Below, in pieces: positions 722 to 14,530 of a DNA stretch of 38,394 bases. The DNA comes from a virus. Positions within the stretch are counted from its first letter, which is position 1. Every line of letters starts with the position of its first letter. Below the pieces are notes generated by a model. That model was not told where the DNA came from and searched no databases. It saw nothing but the letters and a program-made list of their open reading frames with translations. Made by a program: the position numbers and the translations under genes. The DNA is taken from positions 1-38,394 of the IMG/VR virus record IMGVR_UViG_3300042569_000464. One strand, 5' to 3'.

Positions 722-729
722 TATTTATA
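722..729 (-). promoter_or_regulatory. T4-type late promoter -10 element (TATAAATA)
   Basis: On the minus strand this reads TATAAATA, an exact match to the T4 late promoter -10 element recognised by the gp55 sigma factor. It lies 27 bases upstream of the start at 694, in the 47-base gap after the gp67-like gene. No -35 element is expected for this class. Confidence 0.65.
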
Positions 730-5103: not shown

Positions 5104-6801
5104 TTATAACCTTTCCAATCTGTTTCTCATAAACTTTGCATACGTTTCTCCACCGTCTGCAACTTCCCACATGTCACCACCCATAATCTCAAAATCATGT
5201 TCCAAACCATCTTCGATGATTGGAGCTGGCAAAACATCATCATCCATTTGATTCATATTTTCTAACTGAATCTGTTTACGTATGTCGTGGTTAACAATCT
5301 CTTTAAAATATTGTTGGGTTGTTACCCAAGAAAACATGACCAGAGACATGACCATATCGTCATTTGCACCATCTTCTGCACTAAAGGAATTCTTTTGCTG
5401 AATAAAAGTGGTCAACTCGGAGTATGTATCAAAATCTTGAATCAACAATTTGTCACCTTCAATCAAAGTCTTAAGGTTTGAACAACCAATTGCCTTGACC
5501 TGAGGAGACATTTTCAATCCCATTTGAACGCCACGGGCAAACCCAGCCGACAATTGTTGCGGTTTCTTATTGCCTGTAAATATTTTCCAAAGGTTTTCAT
5601 ATTCAAAATCTGAATGTAATGAGTCTGCTACCTGGGGATTGTTATTAATTTCCACCAAAACATATGCATCGTTGTAATATCTCGCTGCATTATAGATGAC
5701 TGTTGGAAACAATATAGGTGTAATTGATGAACTCTTATAGGTTGCCACTTGTTTGTATGGTGTCTGTGAGATATCAATTACAGAGAAGGCTGAACTATCA
5801 AGATTTCTACCTTCTGAAACATCGACCGTGATTGCATACAGGTGGTCGGATTTAGATTCATTCACACCTTCTTTAACCGGATGTTCATATATTTTTAACA
5901 GGTCGTGGTTCGCAATTGGGTCGGTATATACCAACTGTTGCAGTTTGTAACCAGAAACCAAAGTGTTTGAAGAACCTAAAAACTCAGTTTCAAATTCTTG
6001 TGAGAATTGTCGTTGAGAAGTATTGCGAATTGTTTCTTCTTTCCACTTCTCATCTCGACCAGGTACTTGTGACCAATGTATTTCAAAATTAATATAATTA
6101 TTTTTCTTATTAATTGAGTCCATCCATAACTTGTAGAATAGATTCATACCATTAGGTGTAGATACAATAATAATCTTTGTCTTTTTACCTGATGAAATTA
6201 CAGGGTAAACAGAGTTGAAGAATTCTTCCGCAATATTGTTTGGTACGAAAGCAAATTCATCCAAGAATACGATGTTAAAAGAACCTCCACGAATTGCAGA
6301 TGATGAAGTGGATGCAGCAACAATCTTGGAACCATTTTCAAGTTCTACGTTACCTTTGTTCCATGTAACGATACCTTGTTGTAACCACATTGGCAAATTT
6401 TCATATGCAAGTTGGTATTTGGCCAAAATATCACGAGCCAAAGCACCTTTGTTTGCAAGAACTGCACAGTTTTGTTGGTCTGTAAATATGGTTGCCCATA
6501 ACATATACGCTACGGTGGTTGTAGTTTTACCAACCTGTCGAGGACATTTAGTGATAACGAACCGGTTGTCCTTGAAAAGTTTTAACATTTTTTCTTGGAA
6601 CGGCCACATCTTAAAGTTGATTAGGCCGTCATCAACGTTAACAATCTTAATATAATTTTTTGCAAAATAAACAGGGTCTTTGGCACATTTTATATATTCA
6701 TCAACCTGTTCCTGTGTATATTCTACCTTAACACCGGCCTTTTTAAGTAATGGATTATCTCGGTACGCTTCACCAAATTTTAAATCTACATTATCAATCA
6801 T
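5104..6801 (-). CDS. 17: Terminase large subunit gp17 (packaging ATPase and nuclease)
   Basis: A 565-residue protein (T4 gp17 is 610). The N-terminal ATPase domain shows Walker A CPRQVGKTT at residues 86-94, Walker B IVFLDE at 177-182 and the coupling motif STPNG at 214-218. The C-terminal RNase H-fold nuclease shows DVSEGRNLDSSAF with Asp327, VLVEINNN with Glu384, and GANDDMVMSL with Asp481/482, in the order expected for the metal-binding acidic residues. The enzyme docks on the portal, pumps DNA into the prohead and cuts concatemers. Its start overlaps the gp16 stop by four bases (ATGA), indicating translational coupling of the two terminase subunits. All key residues appear intact. Confidence 0.98.
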   Translation of the reverse strand: MIDNVDLKFGEAYRDNPLLKKAGVKVEYTQEQVDEYIKCAKDPVYFAKNYIKIVNVDDGLINFKMWPFQEKMLKLFKDNRFVITKCPRQVGKTTTTVAYMLWATIFTDQQNCAVLANKGALARDILAKYQLAYENLPMWLQQGIVTWNKGNVELENGSKIVAASTSSSAIRGGSFNIVFLDEFAFVPNNIAEEFFNSVYPVISSGKKTKIIIVSTPNGMNLFYKLWMDSINKKNNYINFEIHWSQVPGRDEKWKEETIRNTSQRQFSQEFETEFLGSSNTLVSGYKLQQLVYTDPIANHDLLKIYEHPVKEGVNESKSDHLYAITVDVSEGRNLDSSAFSVIDISQTPYKQVATYKSSSITPILFPTVIYNAARYYNDAYVLVEINNNPQVADSLHSDFEYENLWKIFTGNKKPQQLSAGFARGVQMGLKMSPQVKAIGCSNLKTLIEGDKLLIQDFDTYSELTTFIQQKNSFSAEDGANDDMVMSLVMFSWVTTQQYFKEIVNHDIRKQIQLENMNQMDDDVLPAPIIEDGLEHDFEIMGGDMWEVADGGETYAKFMRNRLERL

Positions 6802-7211
6802 TCTTTACTTTTTAAAAGTTTATTTAATTCAGCGGTTGAACCAACGAAAATTGCTTTATCAATTTTGGTATCACCTTCTTTTTGTTTACCATCCATTGTA
6901 CGCATTTGTTTTTGTACCGCAAGTAGTTCTTTGTTCGCATCAACCACATTCTTTAGTAGTGTTGCATAGACTTCAAATGCCCGTGGATGTTGTCCAGCAG
7001 ATGCAATGTGTCTTAGTTCTTCCATTGCATCTTTGCCGTTATCAATCAACTCTTGTAGATTGTCCTTCGTTTGTTCGTAGGCATCTTGTAAGTCTGTTTT
7101 TAAATCTGGACCTTCTTCAGTCTTAGTAACTACCGGTAACAGAGGTTTTATTTCCTGTTCTACCGGTGTTACATCAAATAATTTTTCCATGTTTTTGTCA
7201 AATGTATTCAT
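6798..7211 (-). CDS. 16: Terminase small subunit gp16
   Basis: A 137-residue mostly helical protein (T4 gp16 is 164), beginning MNTFDKNMEKLFDVTP. The central helices TDLQDAYEQTKDNLQELID and GQHPRAFEVYATLLKNVVDANKELL match the T4-like small terminase core, which oligomerises into rings, recognises DNA and stimulates the gp17 ATPase. The phrase HPRAFEVY is a good family marker. It overlaps gp17 by four bases. Upstream, the usual neighbour gp15 has been displaced by a 1.7-kb beta-propeller-like gene whose stop lies 14 bases away. No separate promoter was seen, so it probably depends on transcription from gp13. Confidence 0.94.
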   Translation of the reverse strand: MNTFDKNMEKLFDVTPVEQEIKPLLPVVTKTEEGPDLKTDLQDAYEQTKDNLQELIDNGKDAMEELRHIASAGQHPRAFEVYATLLKNVVDANKELLAVQKQMRTMDGKQKEGDTKIDKAIFVGSTAELNKLLKSKE

Positions 7212-7225
7212 ATTTTTAACTTAGT

Positions 7226-8968
7226 TTATAATGCTGCGATTCTACTCTTAAAGTCATTGAAGTCGGATGATGCTGCAACCAGTACCTTTAGATTAGCCAA
7301 AGGTACAGAAGCACCAACTTGAATTGTATTGTTTGCAAATTGAATGCTTGCAACATTTGCCAAAGATTTTCCACTTACATCTAAAGCTACGGTGCTTGAT
7401 CCTGAAGAAGGTATAACAATTGTTCCGTTGCTTGTAAATTCCCATTGTTCTTTAAAATAATCAATTGTCTGTTCATTTTCTGGACTAGGATTCTGATAAG
7501 TAACAGCATTCATTGTATATGAATATGTTGTATTAATAGCAAGTGTTACTGTTGTGTTTCCACTACCAACTGTTGTGCTTGTGGTGGTTGCTGCAGATGG
7601 TACAGTCACATATGTAAAGTCGCCCCATTTGGTTGAACTTGAATATGCATACAGACCAGGTAAAGTTCCGTCTATTGGTAATTCATAAGTAATTGCAATT
7701 GCTTTTGTACTGCCGTTTGGATATGCATATCCGGTACCAACAAGAAAATCACCTTTTACGTCCATCTGTCTATGGCCAAGTCTAATATTTTGACCTGCGC
7801 CTGGAACTTGAAGTGAATTTGCCCAAGCAAGGTAACCATTGGCGGCAAGCACTTTGTAATTAATAAATCCAGTTTTATCGTTAGGGTCTGTGGTTGTTCC
7901 GTTTACATATAGATAATTATCACTATACTTAATCCAATTAATTTTTGGTGATGTTACACCAGTTATTTCTTTTTCCCAAACCAATTGATTGTTTGCTCTA
8001 AACATATATATGTTTGTATTTGTTGCAGCATACCAGTTGTTTGATGAATCATAACTTAAACCAATGATTGTATTTCCATATTTGTTGACATTACTTGTTC
8101 TAATGTAAAGACCTTCTGTATCAAACTTATGCACTTGTCCGTTTGCTGACCCAACTAATAAACCACCACGATTTGGTAAAGCAATAATAACGGATGCGTT
8201 TGCCGCATTGCCTGCATTATAAAACGTGAAATACAATTCACCTGTAATATCAAGACCCGTAATTAAATTGTGTTCACCAGTATAATATGGAAAATCTTCA
8301 TCGTCAACACAGATATCTTTAGAACCAATTGAATCTGTAATTAAAGTGTTCCAGACATTTTGTCCTAGATAGTTAAATTTTGTAACACGGGTTGACCTAT
8401 CATCTGGAATGTTTGTTAATAAGTATATGTTATTATTTCCGTCAACTGTTACTGAATCACCATAACTTGCTACTAGTGTTCCACCCACGTTGGCCGCAGG
8501 AACAGATTTTCTCCAATATATTGAACCATATGGATCAAATTTAATAACTGTTGCCTGTGGTAAACCAGTAACTTCATTCTGTGTTGTCATTGATACTACA
8601 ATATTATTTGCAGAATCAAATGCGACACTATGGCCATATGCATTGTTGGCTTGTGTATCTATTTGACCAAACAACATACCCCAAGCTCTATGTTCATGTG
8701 GGTCAGTAGCAATTTCAACCTTTGTATTACTATACATGGTGGTATTGTCAAATAAAATATCACCCAACGAAGCGGTGTTTGCTTTGTTGAAAGCATTCTG
8801 TGCCAACTCTTGGTTGGTTTCATAATATGTATTTGATGTATTTGAGTTAAAAGAAACTGTAGTATACAACTCAGTAAAGTTGTTATTTGTTTTGGTAAAA
8901 GCCGTTCTTAATGAATCGCCTTTGCCATCATTTGCTCTAATACCAATATTGATAGTTTGTTTAGCCAT
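7226..8968 (-). CDS. Beta-propeller-like virion protein inserted between gp15 and gp16
   Basis: A 580-residue protein. The N-terminus, MAKQTINIGIRANDGKGD followed by LRTAFTKTNNNFTELY, is a signature found at the start of many marine T4-like phage structural proteins and is probably a virion attachment segment. A short Ala-Asn piece (QELAQNAFNKANTA, about residues 54-67) resembles the stalk repeats elsewhere in the window. Residues about 100-430 carry repeated blades such as TVDGNNNIYLLTN, GLSYDSSNNWYAATNTNIYMF and KFDPYGSIYWRKSV, resembling SBBP/NHL beta-propellers. The C-terminal third looks like a separate beta domain. There is no catalytic motif. The likely role is a particle-surface binding protein, which is inference. 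It splits the conserved gp15-gp16 pair and has only an ordinary AGAGA-type ribosome site. Confidence 0.8.
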   Translation of the reverse strand: MAKQTINIGIRANDGKGDSLRTAFTKTNNNFTELYTTVSFNSNTSNTYYETNQELAQNAFNKANTASLGDILFDNTTMYSNTKVEIATDPHEHRAWGMLFGQIDTQANNAYGHSVAFDSANNIVVSMTTQNEVTGLPQATVIKFDPYGSIYWRKSVPAANVGGTLVASYGDSVTVDGNNNIYLLTNIPDDRSTRVTKFNYLGQNVWNTLITDSIGSKDICVDDEDFPYYTGEHNLITGLDITGELYFTFYNAGNAANASVIIALPNRGGLLVGSANGQVHKFDTEGLYIRTSNVNKYGNTIIGLSYDSSNNWYAATNTNIYMFRANNQLVWEKEITGVTSPKINWIKYSDNYLYVNGTTTDPNDKTGFINYKVLAANGYLAWANSLQVPGAGQNIRLGHRQMDVKGDFLVGTGYAYPNGSTKAIAITYELPIDGTLPGLYAYSSSTKWGDFTYVTVPSAATTTSTTVGSGNTTVTLAINTTYSYTMNAVTYQNPSPENEQTIDYFKEQWEFTSNGTIVIPSSGSSTVALDVSGKSLANVASIQFANNTIQVGASVPLANLKVLVAASSDFNDFKSRIAAL

Positions 8969-8986
8969 TTATTTCTCTCGTTTTGT

Positions 8987-10003
8987 TTACTGATTTGCAG
9001 CTTTATTGATTGTAGTAACTTCAGCCAATGTATTATCTGCCTTAGCTTCTTCTTTGTCAACAGACATGTAATCAATATCTGTACTAACTCTACCAATCGA
9101 ATCGACTTCAACGAATTTCAATGGGTTCAAGTTGTATGATGTAAAGTTATAATTTGCCAATGTGTTAATCCCGTATATAGGTTTGTCAGACACGAAGTTT
9201 CCTGTTAGTTCTTTTAGTCTCAATACATTATCTGTAAATTGAACAACCATGCCTGTTGCTGATGCATCATCTGGAGTATAACCTTGATATACTTTTTCAC
9301 CCACTTTATATGTTCCGTAACCAGAATCCAAGTTCATGTAAAATTCAATTACTTCTTCTTGTGACACTAGGTTGTATACAGAAACAAAGGCACGATTGAT
9401 AACACTAGTCTCTGTAACCTTACCAAATATAAAACCTTTGACTGTGAAGTTCAATGTCCAAACAATCATTCGAGTTTCATTTTCTCTACCACCTTCATAA
9501 GTAATTTCATGTTGTGTGGAATTTAAAATGACAGGAACTTCTTTAATAATTCCCATCTCAGGAATAAGGTTTAATTTAATCGTATAATCTGGTGTAAAGA
9601 ATGGTAAAATGTGTTCAATGATTTGTGTACCATCTTCTATGTTACGTACATAGATGTAAAGATTAAAATCGAAATTGTATGGTACTGGATTGTATTGTGA
9701 AAGTACTCCTGATGGTGGAGTTCCTGAAAAATTTTTAATGTTTGTGTTTTGTTTTCTACTTGAGTCGTATGATAAACCAGCCATTTCAAATGACATACGA
9801 GGTAAAGTCAATTGAACTTTTTTATCTAAATTCAAATCTTCTTCAAGGCGCATGACATAACGTTCTTTACTTGCATATGCAATAGGAACAATAAATCTTT
9901 CTGATTCTGTAAGGTCTGGTTTAAATCTATACAAGGTAATGCTATCAAATAGATTACCAAATCCTACAACCAATTTTCTTATGACACGATTATATGTTGA
10001 CAT
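8987..10003 (-). CDS. 15: Tail sheath stabiliser/terminator gp15
   Basis: A 338-residue protein (T4 gp15 is 272). The N-terminal region contains KLVVGFGNLFDSITLYRF, YASKERYVMRLEEDL, LPRMSFEMAGLSYDSSRK and YNPVPYNFDFNLYIYVRN, and then FTPDYTIKLN and VPVILNSTQHEITYEG. This is the recognised T4-like tail sheath stabiliser pattern. Gp15 caps the finished tail as a hexamer and joins it to the neck. The C-terminal about 100 residues (YQGYTPDDASATGMVVQFTD onward) extend beyond the T4 protein. The start codon overlaps the gp14 stop by one base (TAATG), so the two are translationally coupled. The product acts with gp13 and gp14 at the head-tail joint. Confidence 0.94.
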   Translation of the reverse strand: MSTYNRVIRKLVVGFGNLFDSITLYRFKPDLTESERFIVPIAYASKERYVMRLEEDLNLDKKVQLTLPRMSFEMAGLSYDSSRKQNTNIKNFSGTPPSGVLSQYNPVPYNFDFNLYIYVRNIEDGTQIIEHILPFFTPDYTIKLNLIPEMGIIKEVPVILNSTQHEITYEGGRENETRMIVWTLNFTVKGFIFGKVTETSVINRAFVSVYNLVSQEEVIEFYMNLDSGYGTYKVGEKVYQGYTPDDASATGMVVQFTDNVLRLKELTGNFVSDKPIYGINTLANYNFTSYNLNPLKFVEVDSIGRVSTDIDYMSVDKEEAKADNTLAEVTTINKAANQ

Positions 10004-12056: not shown

Positions 12057-13277
12057 TTACTCCATCGGCACCGCAAAACCAACCCGTTGGCCATTACCTT
12101 GGTACATTGGCCAAATCATATAAGTTTTAGTATTGTACACGAATGTATCTCCAGGTGTATACTCGCCATTAAATATATATACACCGCATTGGTCACTAGC
12201 GTTACCGCCGTAATTACCATATGGGGTTGCTTCCCATCCGAATGGCATCAAGCCGAAACCTGTAGATGCTAAATCAGCACTTGGATATCTATTGCTTGTT
12301 ACGTTACTATACGAGCCTGAGTATGATGGAAGTACAGCACTTGCTAATGTACCTGCTGTTTGAACTGTTTGTAACCCATAATTACCAGAAGTTCTGCCGT
12401 TCATAGTCATATGAACCCCTTGATTATAAATTCTTGGCCAAGCAGTAGCAACCTGCGGCAAAGCAGACACTATACTATGAACACGTAGTGGTAACGTGGT
12501 AGTGTTGGTAGTAAAATATAAATTTTGTACAGTAGTTAAGTCATTGTTTGTACCATATCCTATACCTGCACCTCGTTGAGATGTGTATAATACAGGATAA
12601 ATTCCGTTACTATCAAGGTTATGATAGTCAAAACGAGTATATTGTGTTTGGAAAAATGGTCCACCTTGTATGCTACTGTTAGAATAAGATGTGCCCCAGC
12701 CAACGTTGTAACTAGTGGCGTTGGTGACAGCCCAAAAGAAACACTTATCCGTTATGTAAGCCCAAAATGTTCTAATGTTAGCATGGCCACTACCAGATGC
12801 CAACTGGGGTGATATATTTCCATAATTATTTCCACCTAATGTTAAGTTAGTACCTGAAGTACCGGCAGTAATTTCACTAAACGTTACTGGCATTGATGTT
12901 GAGGACATAGTGCCACCTGTAATCGCAGTACCAACCTCAAAGTATGCGTAACCGGTTCCAGCTGGACCAACTATTCGTGTATAAACATTACTAGAAGGTG
13001 CATCATATACTGGTTGTTCTAACGTAAAGTTTAACATTGCATTTTGCAAATCGTTGGTGAATACGTGTGCTTTTGTATTTGCTGGATTAACAGTTCTAAT
13101 AATCGTACTATTGTTTGCATCAAAGTTTGCTGTTAATGTTGCCGAATAAGAAGCACTAGTAAATCTACTTTGCAATGCACTCACACTGGTGATTGAACTT
13201 GTGTTAACAATGTCTGCTATTATTCTTAACGGAATTGTAAATCTAGTGTCTGCTGTAAAACTTAATTTAATAAACAT
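12057..13277 (-). CDS. Tail-fibre-like protein (406 aa), paralogue of the adjacent 416-aa protein
   Basis: The product is 406 residues, beginning MFIKLSFTADTRFTIPLRII. It shares an overall plan with the upstream 416-residue protein: a start of the form M-[FY]-IK-L-[SN]-FT-[AS]-D, then I[AV][DN][EI]I[VI]NT, the marker 'SALQS/SLQS', a middle region with GPFFQTQYTRFDYHN, and a C-terminal block FNGEYTPGDTFVYNTKTYMI followed by a RVGFAVPME end. The region around RYPSADLASTGFGLMPFGW also matches its neighbour. The content is Ser/Thr/Asn/Gly-rich and beta-like with no catalytic motif. It is probably a surface-exposed virion protein, such as a fibre tip, and was presumably duplicated from or with the 416-residue gene. 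It lies two bases after that gene. Confidence 0.75.
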   Translation of the reverse strand: MFIKLSFTADTRFTIPLRIIADIVNTSSITSVSALQSRFTSASYSATLTANFDANNSTIIRTVNPANTKAHVFTNDLQNAMLNFTLEQPVYDAPSSNVYTRIVGPAGTGYAYFEVGTAITGGTMSSTSMPVTFSEITAGTSGTNLTLGGNNYGNISPQLASGSGHANIRTFWAYITDKCFFWAVTNATSYNVGWGTSYSNSSIQGGPFFQTQYTRFDYHNLDSNGIYPVLYTSQRGAGIGYGTNNDLTTVQNLYFTTNTTTLPLRVHSIVSALPQVATAWPRIYNQGVHMTMNGRTSGNYGLQTVQTAGTLASAVLPSYSGSYSNVTSNRYPSADLASTGFGLMPFGWEATPYGNYGGNASDQCGVYIFNGEYTPGDTFVYNTKTYMIWPMYQGNGQRVGFAVPME

Positions 13278-13279
13278 GA

Positions 13280-14530
13280 TTATTCCTTTGGAATTGCTAT
13301 GCCAACACGGTCTGTGTATCCAGAAAAAGTTGGTAAAATTTTGTATGTTTTTCCATTAAATGAAAACTCATCTCCTGGATAATAATCTCCATTAAATAGA
13401 TACCAACCACCTTGTGTGCTGGCATCACCGCCAGAATTATTGTAGTATGAATGTCTCCATGAGATTGGTAACATTCCAAAAGTTTGAGTCTTCAAATCTG
13501 AACTAGGATAACGTGTATGTACTGTTTTAAAAATAGCTGCACCTTGTGCTGCGGTGGTGATGGTGCTGATAGAACCAGCTGAAACTGTTGTCAATGCAGT
13601 AAACTCATTGTATCTAGTACCTATACCCCAAGTAACATAAGGTTGAAGTATCATTGGCCAGCTGGCAGTTGTTGACGGATAAGCACTAATTAAATTAAAC
13701 ACTCTAAATGGAATAAAATTGCCTGTGGCCGAATTGTGTTGTGTGTTATCTATTCTGTCCCAATCTGCTACGCCACCAAAACCAATACCTACTCCTCTAC
13801 CCCAATTTGTAAACATTAATGGTGTTATATTTGTTGCATTGGTGTTTGTGTAATCAAACCTATTATATTGACTAAAGATGAATGGTCCACTAAATGATGT
13901 ACTAGCACTATAACTATTACCAAATCCAAGGCTATAAGTGTTGCCATTTGTGCAACAAAAAACAAGAGCATTATCACTTAAATACATGAAGAAAGTTCTT
14001 ACAGTACTAAATCCACTGGTACTCGAACCAATTGAACCAGATGATCCTGAAGCCACTGAATTGTTAAAAGTTGGCGGTGTGCCAAGAACTGTAGTTGCAG
14101 TACCAGTTCCTGAAATAGGTTGACTATTTGCGCTTGATAAAGTTCCACTAGATAAACCGTTAGCTGTTCTAACCGTTGATACACCAGCGGAATCCGTAGC
14201 ATTTTGAAATTGAATATAATATTTTTTTGTGTTATCATCATAATGAGAGAACTCAAGTGTCCATGCATGTTGGTCATCTGTCGCACCGGCGCCGTTTCTA
14301 GCATAACGAGAAACCGTGTTTGATGTTAGTCCGGTCGTACCAGTACCTGTTCTAATAATTTCACTTGTGTTTGCATCAAAACCAGTCAACAATGTTGACC
14401 ACCAACTGTTGGCAGTCGCAGCACTTTGCAAAGATGCAACGTTAGCGATACCCGTATTGATAATCTCGTTGACAACACGATATATGTGGTGTATTTTTTT
14501 ATCTGATGTAAAATTTAATTTGATATACAT
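13280..14530 (-). CDS. Tail-fibre-like protein (416 aa), paralogue of the 406-aa protein
   Basis: The product is 416 residues, starting MYIKLNFTSDKKIHHIYRVV. It parallels the downstream 406-residue protein throughout, including SGPFIFSQYNRFDYTNTNAT in the middle, RYPSSDLKTQTFGMLPISWR, and the C-terminal FNGDYYPGDEFSFNGKTYKI with RVGIAIPKE as the end. More distant relatives in the first module are the 401- and 435-residue proteins. The family seems to have a short conserved N-terminus (possible virion docking) and a conserved C-terminal cap around the G-D/Q-x-F-x-[FIY]-N motif. The start overlaps the stop of the 94-residue gene by one base (TAATG), so translation is coupled. It is proposed to be a host-binding or baseplate/fibre component. 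This is inference. Confidence 0.75.
   Translation of the reverse strand: MYIKLNFTSDKKIHHIYRVVNEIINTGIANVASLQSAATANSWWSTLLTGFDANTSEIIRTGTGTTGLTSNTVSRYARNGAGATDDQHAWTLEFSHYDDNTKKYYIQFQNATDSAGVSTVRTANGLSSGTLSSANSQPISGTGTATTVLGTPPTFNNSVASGSSGSIGSSTSGFSTVRTFFMYLSDNALVFCCTNGNTYSLGFGNSYSASTSFSGPFIFSQYNRFDYTNTNATNITPLMFTNWGRGVGIGFGGVADWDRIDNTQHNSATGNFIPFRVFNLISAYPSTTASWPMILQPYVTWGIGTRYNEFTALTTVSAGSISTITTAAQGAAIFKTVHTRYPSSDLKTQTFGMLPISWRHSYYNNSGGDASTQGGWYLFNGDYYPGDEFSFNGKTYKILPTFSGYTDRVGIAIPKE

Follow-up and report, generated by a model that had tools for sequence, protein, structure and literature searches.

A gp9/gp10-type anchor joined to a predicted beta-propeller at the variable gp15/gp16 junction of a T4-like aquatic virus

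Genes at the gp15/gp16 junction

The window analysed here is an entire IMG/VR record of 38,394 bases from a T4-like aquatic virus. Its structural genes are arranged in the order gp13-gp14-gp15-X-gp16-gp17-gp18-gp19-gp20, where X is an intact ORF of 580 codons with an ATG start (7226..8968, minus strand), exactly as described by the first-pass annotation of this DNA. The ORF is flanked upstream by the gene of gp15, the tail terminator or sheath stabiliser (8987..10003, minus strand; 338 aa; PF16724, E=1.2e-62), and downstream by the gene of the terminase small subunit gp16 (6798..7211, minus strand; PHROG 445, E=1.1e-28; PF11053 above cut-off). Its 580 aa product combines a gp9/gp10-type anchor, a predicted seven-bladed beta-propeller and an exchangeable C-terminal module, and homologues of it were identified at the same junction of other viruses, being intact in all complete copies. 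In phage T4 the genes of gp15 and gp16 are adjacent, as had also been said of them, and lie 8 nt apart.

The propeller gene is spaced 18 nt from gp15 and 14 nt from gp16, a packing like that of its neighbours, and a Shine-Dalgarno-like GAGAG (8975..8979, minus strand) lies 6 nt 5' of its ATG. A search of the window placed no T4-type late promoter (TATAAATA) near the gene, and sigma-70-like matches were no more numerous than expected by chance, which bears out the earlier remark that no promoter of its own is visible. The gene is likely to share a transcript with the late neck, terminase and tail genes. The sole TATAAATA of the 38-kb window is found at 722-729 (minus strand), directly upstream of the gene at 173-694, where four occurrences in the window would be expected by chance.

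Domain architecture of the propeller protein

Residues 1-38 (8855..8968, minus strand) correspond to the N-terminal anchor of the T4 baseplate proteins gp9 and gp10. Using the window protein alone, PHROG 677 and 958 (gp9/gp10-type baseplate wedge) match the N-terminal part; the protein falls under the curated cut-off of PF07880 and is unlisted there at E<=0.1, and a PDB search with this single sequence gave chance matches only. Its 96% identical copy in G001 scores 18.2 bits against the PF07880 cut-off of 25, while copies from four sister genomes (G002, G005 and G006 among them) exceed it. It is the family profiles that carry the anchor homology: one built from 12 homologues aligns with residues 2-37 of T4 gp10 (E=3e-4), and another, from 15 diverse anchors, with residues 1-36 of T4 gp10 (E=4.4e-15) and with T4 gp9 (E=0.002). 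Furthermore, gp9 of cyanophage P-SSM7 is 55% identical to the propeller protein over 42 residues with nothing significant beyond, and hhalign of the anchor with this gp9 (95.9%) gave an alignment limited to residues 1-43; the middle and C-terminal domains of gp9 are thus absent from the propeller protein. The N-terminus, previously read as a virion-attachment region in general terms, is on these profiles specifically a gp9/gp10 baseplate-wedge anchor. Homology with T4 gp9/gp10 (PF07880, PHROG 677/958) covers these approximately 38 residues, whereas everything after the anchor differs, the payload here being the propeller.

Residues 39-84 (8717..8854, minus strand) are predicted to form a helical linker, possibly a coiled-coil stem, with AF2 helices placed at low confidence at residues 17-42 and 52-65. 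The AF2 model of the full-length protein is weak (pLDDT 54), its anchor and C-terminal regions being modelled at low confidence. Modelling of residues 85-470 from an alignment of 17 sequences gave a pLDDT of 82.4 and a pTM of 0.87. Seven groups of four strands can be discerned in this model (residues ~111-156, 169-211, 219-250, 258-293, 303-336, 343-387 and 402-455, as grouped by us), making up a predicted seven-bladed propeller at residues 111-455 (7604..8638, minus strand). Foldseek against the PDB returned a list dominated by propellers (CylK, NHL, WD40 and designed propellers), the highest TMt, 0.74, being that with a designed 7-blade protein. AF2 and Foldseek hence agree with the propeller-like blades suggested earlier; as the TM-scores are moderate, the blade number of seven is a prediction.

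The top query TM-scores among the Foldseek matches listed belong to an enzyme, CylK, and phage endosialidases are trimeric propellers carried on a stem (PMC4901313). Both would suit a virion-borne enzyme that degrades glycans in the manner of a depolymerase, rather than a pure binder. Pfam and PHROGs contribute generic propeller models only (BamB-like, SBBP, NHL, ACSF4), with no enzyme family at a meaningful score, and such an activity is considered quite improbable.

Searched with the full protein, 50,697 cultured phage records gave no match, and the propeller is thus not known from isolates. A literature search, to which most subscription journals were closed, likewise turned up no description of a propeller at the gp15/gp16 junction. 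A bacterial source for the propeller was also sought; the matches, which came from five Bacteroidota genomes at 24-29% over stretches of 100-200 aa, were uninformative.

Residues 531-580 (7229..7378, minus strand) constitute a C-terminal module ending in LANLKVLVAASSDFNDFKSRIAAL. Comparison of homologues identified three such modules on the same propeller, with the endings ...LANLKVLVAASTDFxxFKxRIAAL, ...NLPHNWFD and ...WKRVAWSNNTW. Six changes of module are required on the propeller tree; for the commonest class, well-supported branches make at least four unavoidable. A LANLK-like ending is present also on fibres with another N-terminus. Read on this tree, the C-terminal module of the propeller protein has been swapped repeatedly.

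Content and evolution of the junction

IMG/VR was searched by gp15 and by the propeller, yielding 162 non-redundant loci with a readable gp15/gp16 junction, among which the counts of junction content depend on the query and are not frequencies. The junction was empty in 62 loci and held the anchored propeller in 42; other anchored proteins of 64 to 1729 aa occupied it in 18, fibres with a different N-terminus (MxxTLQFKR...GANGELIID) in 23 and something else in 13, with four loci being unassignable. On a tree of the gp15 body, parsimony requires at least 26 changes of junction content (a quick tree, whose starred branches force fewer). The propeller clade forms a single starred branch of this tree, by which the propeller appears to have entered the junction once and stayed. 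With the propeller as the only query, all 80 contigs kept carry it at this junction or cut by the end of the contig, one of them with a garbled downstream side and apparently misassembled. Contig IMGVR_UViG_3300020042_010337 (loci L124, L193 and L439) was left out of the tree, as its gp15 occurs on both strands and an inverted-repeat assembly error is likely.

The propeller gene had been viewed as an insertion into a strongly conserved block. It has been described that g15-g18 is a hypervariable region of cyanomyoviruses (PMC2984593), so that this premise falls; five genes lie between 15 and 16 in phage Melnitz, and variable inserts of the kind by which the g15-g18 region of T4-like phages is recognised occur at the 15/16 junction itself. 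The suggested survey did recover the same insertion in 42 of the 162 loci; the 62 empty junctions and the remaining contents mark the block as variable. Since many sister phages are without it, the T4-like plan does not depend on the propeller gene. In the part of the review concerned with this region (PMC2984593, reviewing Millard 2009), variable content likewise lies between conserved structural genes and the cargo described is metabolic (plastoquinol oxidase, dehydrogenases), whereas here mostly anchored fibre-like proteins are found between 15 and 16. In S-CAM1 and S-H38 the variable cargo is located between 16 and 17.

Two of the other anchored occupants of the junction stand out. A protein of 1729 aa (L041:6001-11190; also in L042 and L043) possesses the same anchor and a C-terminal RCC1-type propeller, and represents a second and unrelated combination of anchor and propeller. 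The other (L050:6001-6195) is only 64 aa long, made up of the anchor plus a C-terminal peptide of LANLK type, and is a naturally minimal form that lacks a payload.

Some occupants of the junction are non-anchored genes, which would be consistent with a late protein that is not part of the virion, located for instance on the surface of the infected cell and acting in superinfection exclusion. The propeller protein possesses the gp9/gp10 anchor, its gene sits in the late structural operon, and the defence library gave no match to any defence or counter-defence family; a role outside the virion is accordingly held to be very improbable.

The propeller protein is 61-75% identical between related viruses, compared with 76-96% for its neighbours, in seven of eight comparisons; in the closest pair (with L015) it is 89% identical. 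Values of omega are 0.14-0.25 for the propeller gene and 0.03-0.17 for its neighbours. The gene is thus evolving faster than its neighbours while under purifying selection, a pattern that suits a host-recognition protein which is functional and evolves more quickly, and not one in decay.

Probable site and role in the virion

The baseplate cluster is where phages P-SSM7 and Melnitz encode their sole anchor, just upstream of gp8, and the T4 genes of gp9 and gp10 likewise lie beside gp8, whereas the propeller gene lies between gp15 and gp16. S-H38 encodes one anchor gene, distant from gp15. Two large propeller-carrying contigs, G001 (179.7 kb) and G002 (172 kb), both of which may be incomplete, have their only confident anchor in the gene at the gp15/gp16 junction. 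G001 shows one extra weak match (20 residues, E=0.02), and the gp8 neighbourhood of the two holds no anchor but a different fibre-like gene. No anchor was found in four contigs with an empty junction (G008, G015, G016 and G017; 111-236 kb), which may also be incomplete. Most economically, the gp9/gp10 role, where it is kept, would have moved to the gp15/gp16 junction. A tentative extension, which we regard as possible though not probable, is that the junction is set aside for the exchange of host-recognition arms. The anchor would have been relocated there from the baseplate cluster, so that a single replaceable gene would take on all of the gp9/gp10 function, filled with payloads unrelated to one another (propellers of two kinds, the minimal 64-aa plug and repeat fibres).

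The first-pass annotation had proposed attachment to the neck or tail from gene position. Attached to the neck, the propeller protein would sit on the gp15 ring as a whisker or collar structure, from which the host is sensed or bound. The gene does adjoin gp15, and in T4 it is fibritin that touches gp15 (PMC3004832), offering a precedent. Moreover, the C-terminal tail of gp15 differs between propeller-bearing loci and related loci with an empty junction, and three anchored loci without a propeller (L039, L050 and L212) also have extended gp15 tails. The N-terminus of the propeller protein is gp9/gp10-like, however, and no match of the protein to fibritin was obtained in Pfam or PHROGs. In addition, the distant loci L069, L071, L075 and L076 pair anchored proteins with a gp15 tail of the empty type, so the tail does not strictly follow the anchor, and recombination into the 3' end of gp15 would account for the local link between them. 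As a docking partner of the anchor, the gp15 tail was rejected: the association holds in near clades and fails in distant ones. Decoration of the neck is consequently judged unlikely. In itself, the gp15 of the window (8987-10003), like those of L039, L050, L212 and L144-L148, was observed to carry a C-terminal extension past the core of cultured gp15 proteins; within the near clade, anchored loci and those with an empty junction differ in the last ~40 residues of gp15.

Because the gp9/gp10 domain is encoded in the baseplate cluster of cultured relatives, beside gp8, the baseplate rim is a better-supported site than the neck, even though the propeller gene is not beside baseplate genes. The propeller gene probably encodes a modular host-recognition protein, an adhesin or short fibre, displayed on the baseplate rim of the virion. 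In T4, the N-domain of gp9 binds gp7, gp9 carries the long tail fibre, and both gp9 and gp10 are trimers (PMC3004832). The propeller protein would similarly trimerise, use its N-terminus to dock on the baseplate wedge (a gp7-like protein, by analogy with T4) and replace gp9/gp10 in its lineage. In G001 the gene of a gp7-like wedge protein lies between gp6 and gp8. The helical linker may then act as a short stem, with the face of the propeller binding a host-surface ligand, probably a glycan, and the C-terminal module capping the structure, trimerising it or tuning its specificity. The junction would operate as a cassette slot, in which recombination between conserved flanks swaps payloads and sometimes the type of anchor.

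A similar domain order has been described for Gp45, the receptor-binding protein of Staphylococcus siphophage phi11, which is built as stem, propeller and tower (PMC4901313). The order of parts is similar in the protein studied here, with a predicted N-terminal helical stem, a predicted central propeller and a C-terminal module; Gp45 has five blades, in contrast to the seven predicted here, and no sequence homology between the two was found. Judging by the citation in PMC4901313, gp131C of phage PhiKZ is a seven-bladed propeller of a myophage located at the baseplate periphery; PhiKZ is an unrelated phage and the likeness is one of description only.

As a baseplate adhesin, the propeller protein would link the hypervariable junction of abundant T4-like phages to a function, namely the exchange of anchored host-binding arms. 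A gp9/gp10 anchor of 38 residues with a replaceable payload behind it may further serve as a sequence handle for predicting the adhesins of uncultured phages with otherwise unrecognisable tail fibres. According to a review, g10, g11, g12, g34, g35, g37 and wac were not found in cyanomyoviruses, and the propeller protein is a candidate for the missing fibre-attachment parts of non-enteric T4-like phages.

A long series of fibre- and adhesin-like genes, sharing the strand of gp13 and lying upstream of it, was also observed (11708-38264). Glycine-rich and Laminin_G_3 domains, IPT/TIG domains and alanine-zipper repeats occur among their products, and the genes at 12057-13277 and 13280-14530 are neighbouring look-alikes encoding 406 and 416 aa. 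These genes represent many further candidate host-contact proteins of the phage, besides the propeller protein.
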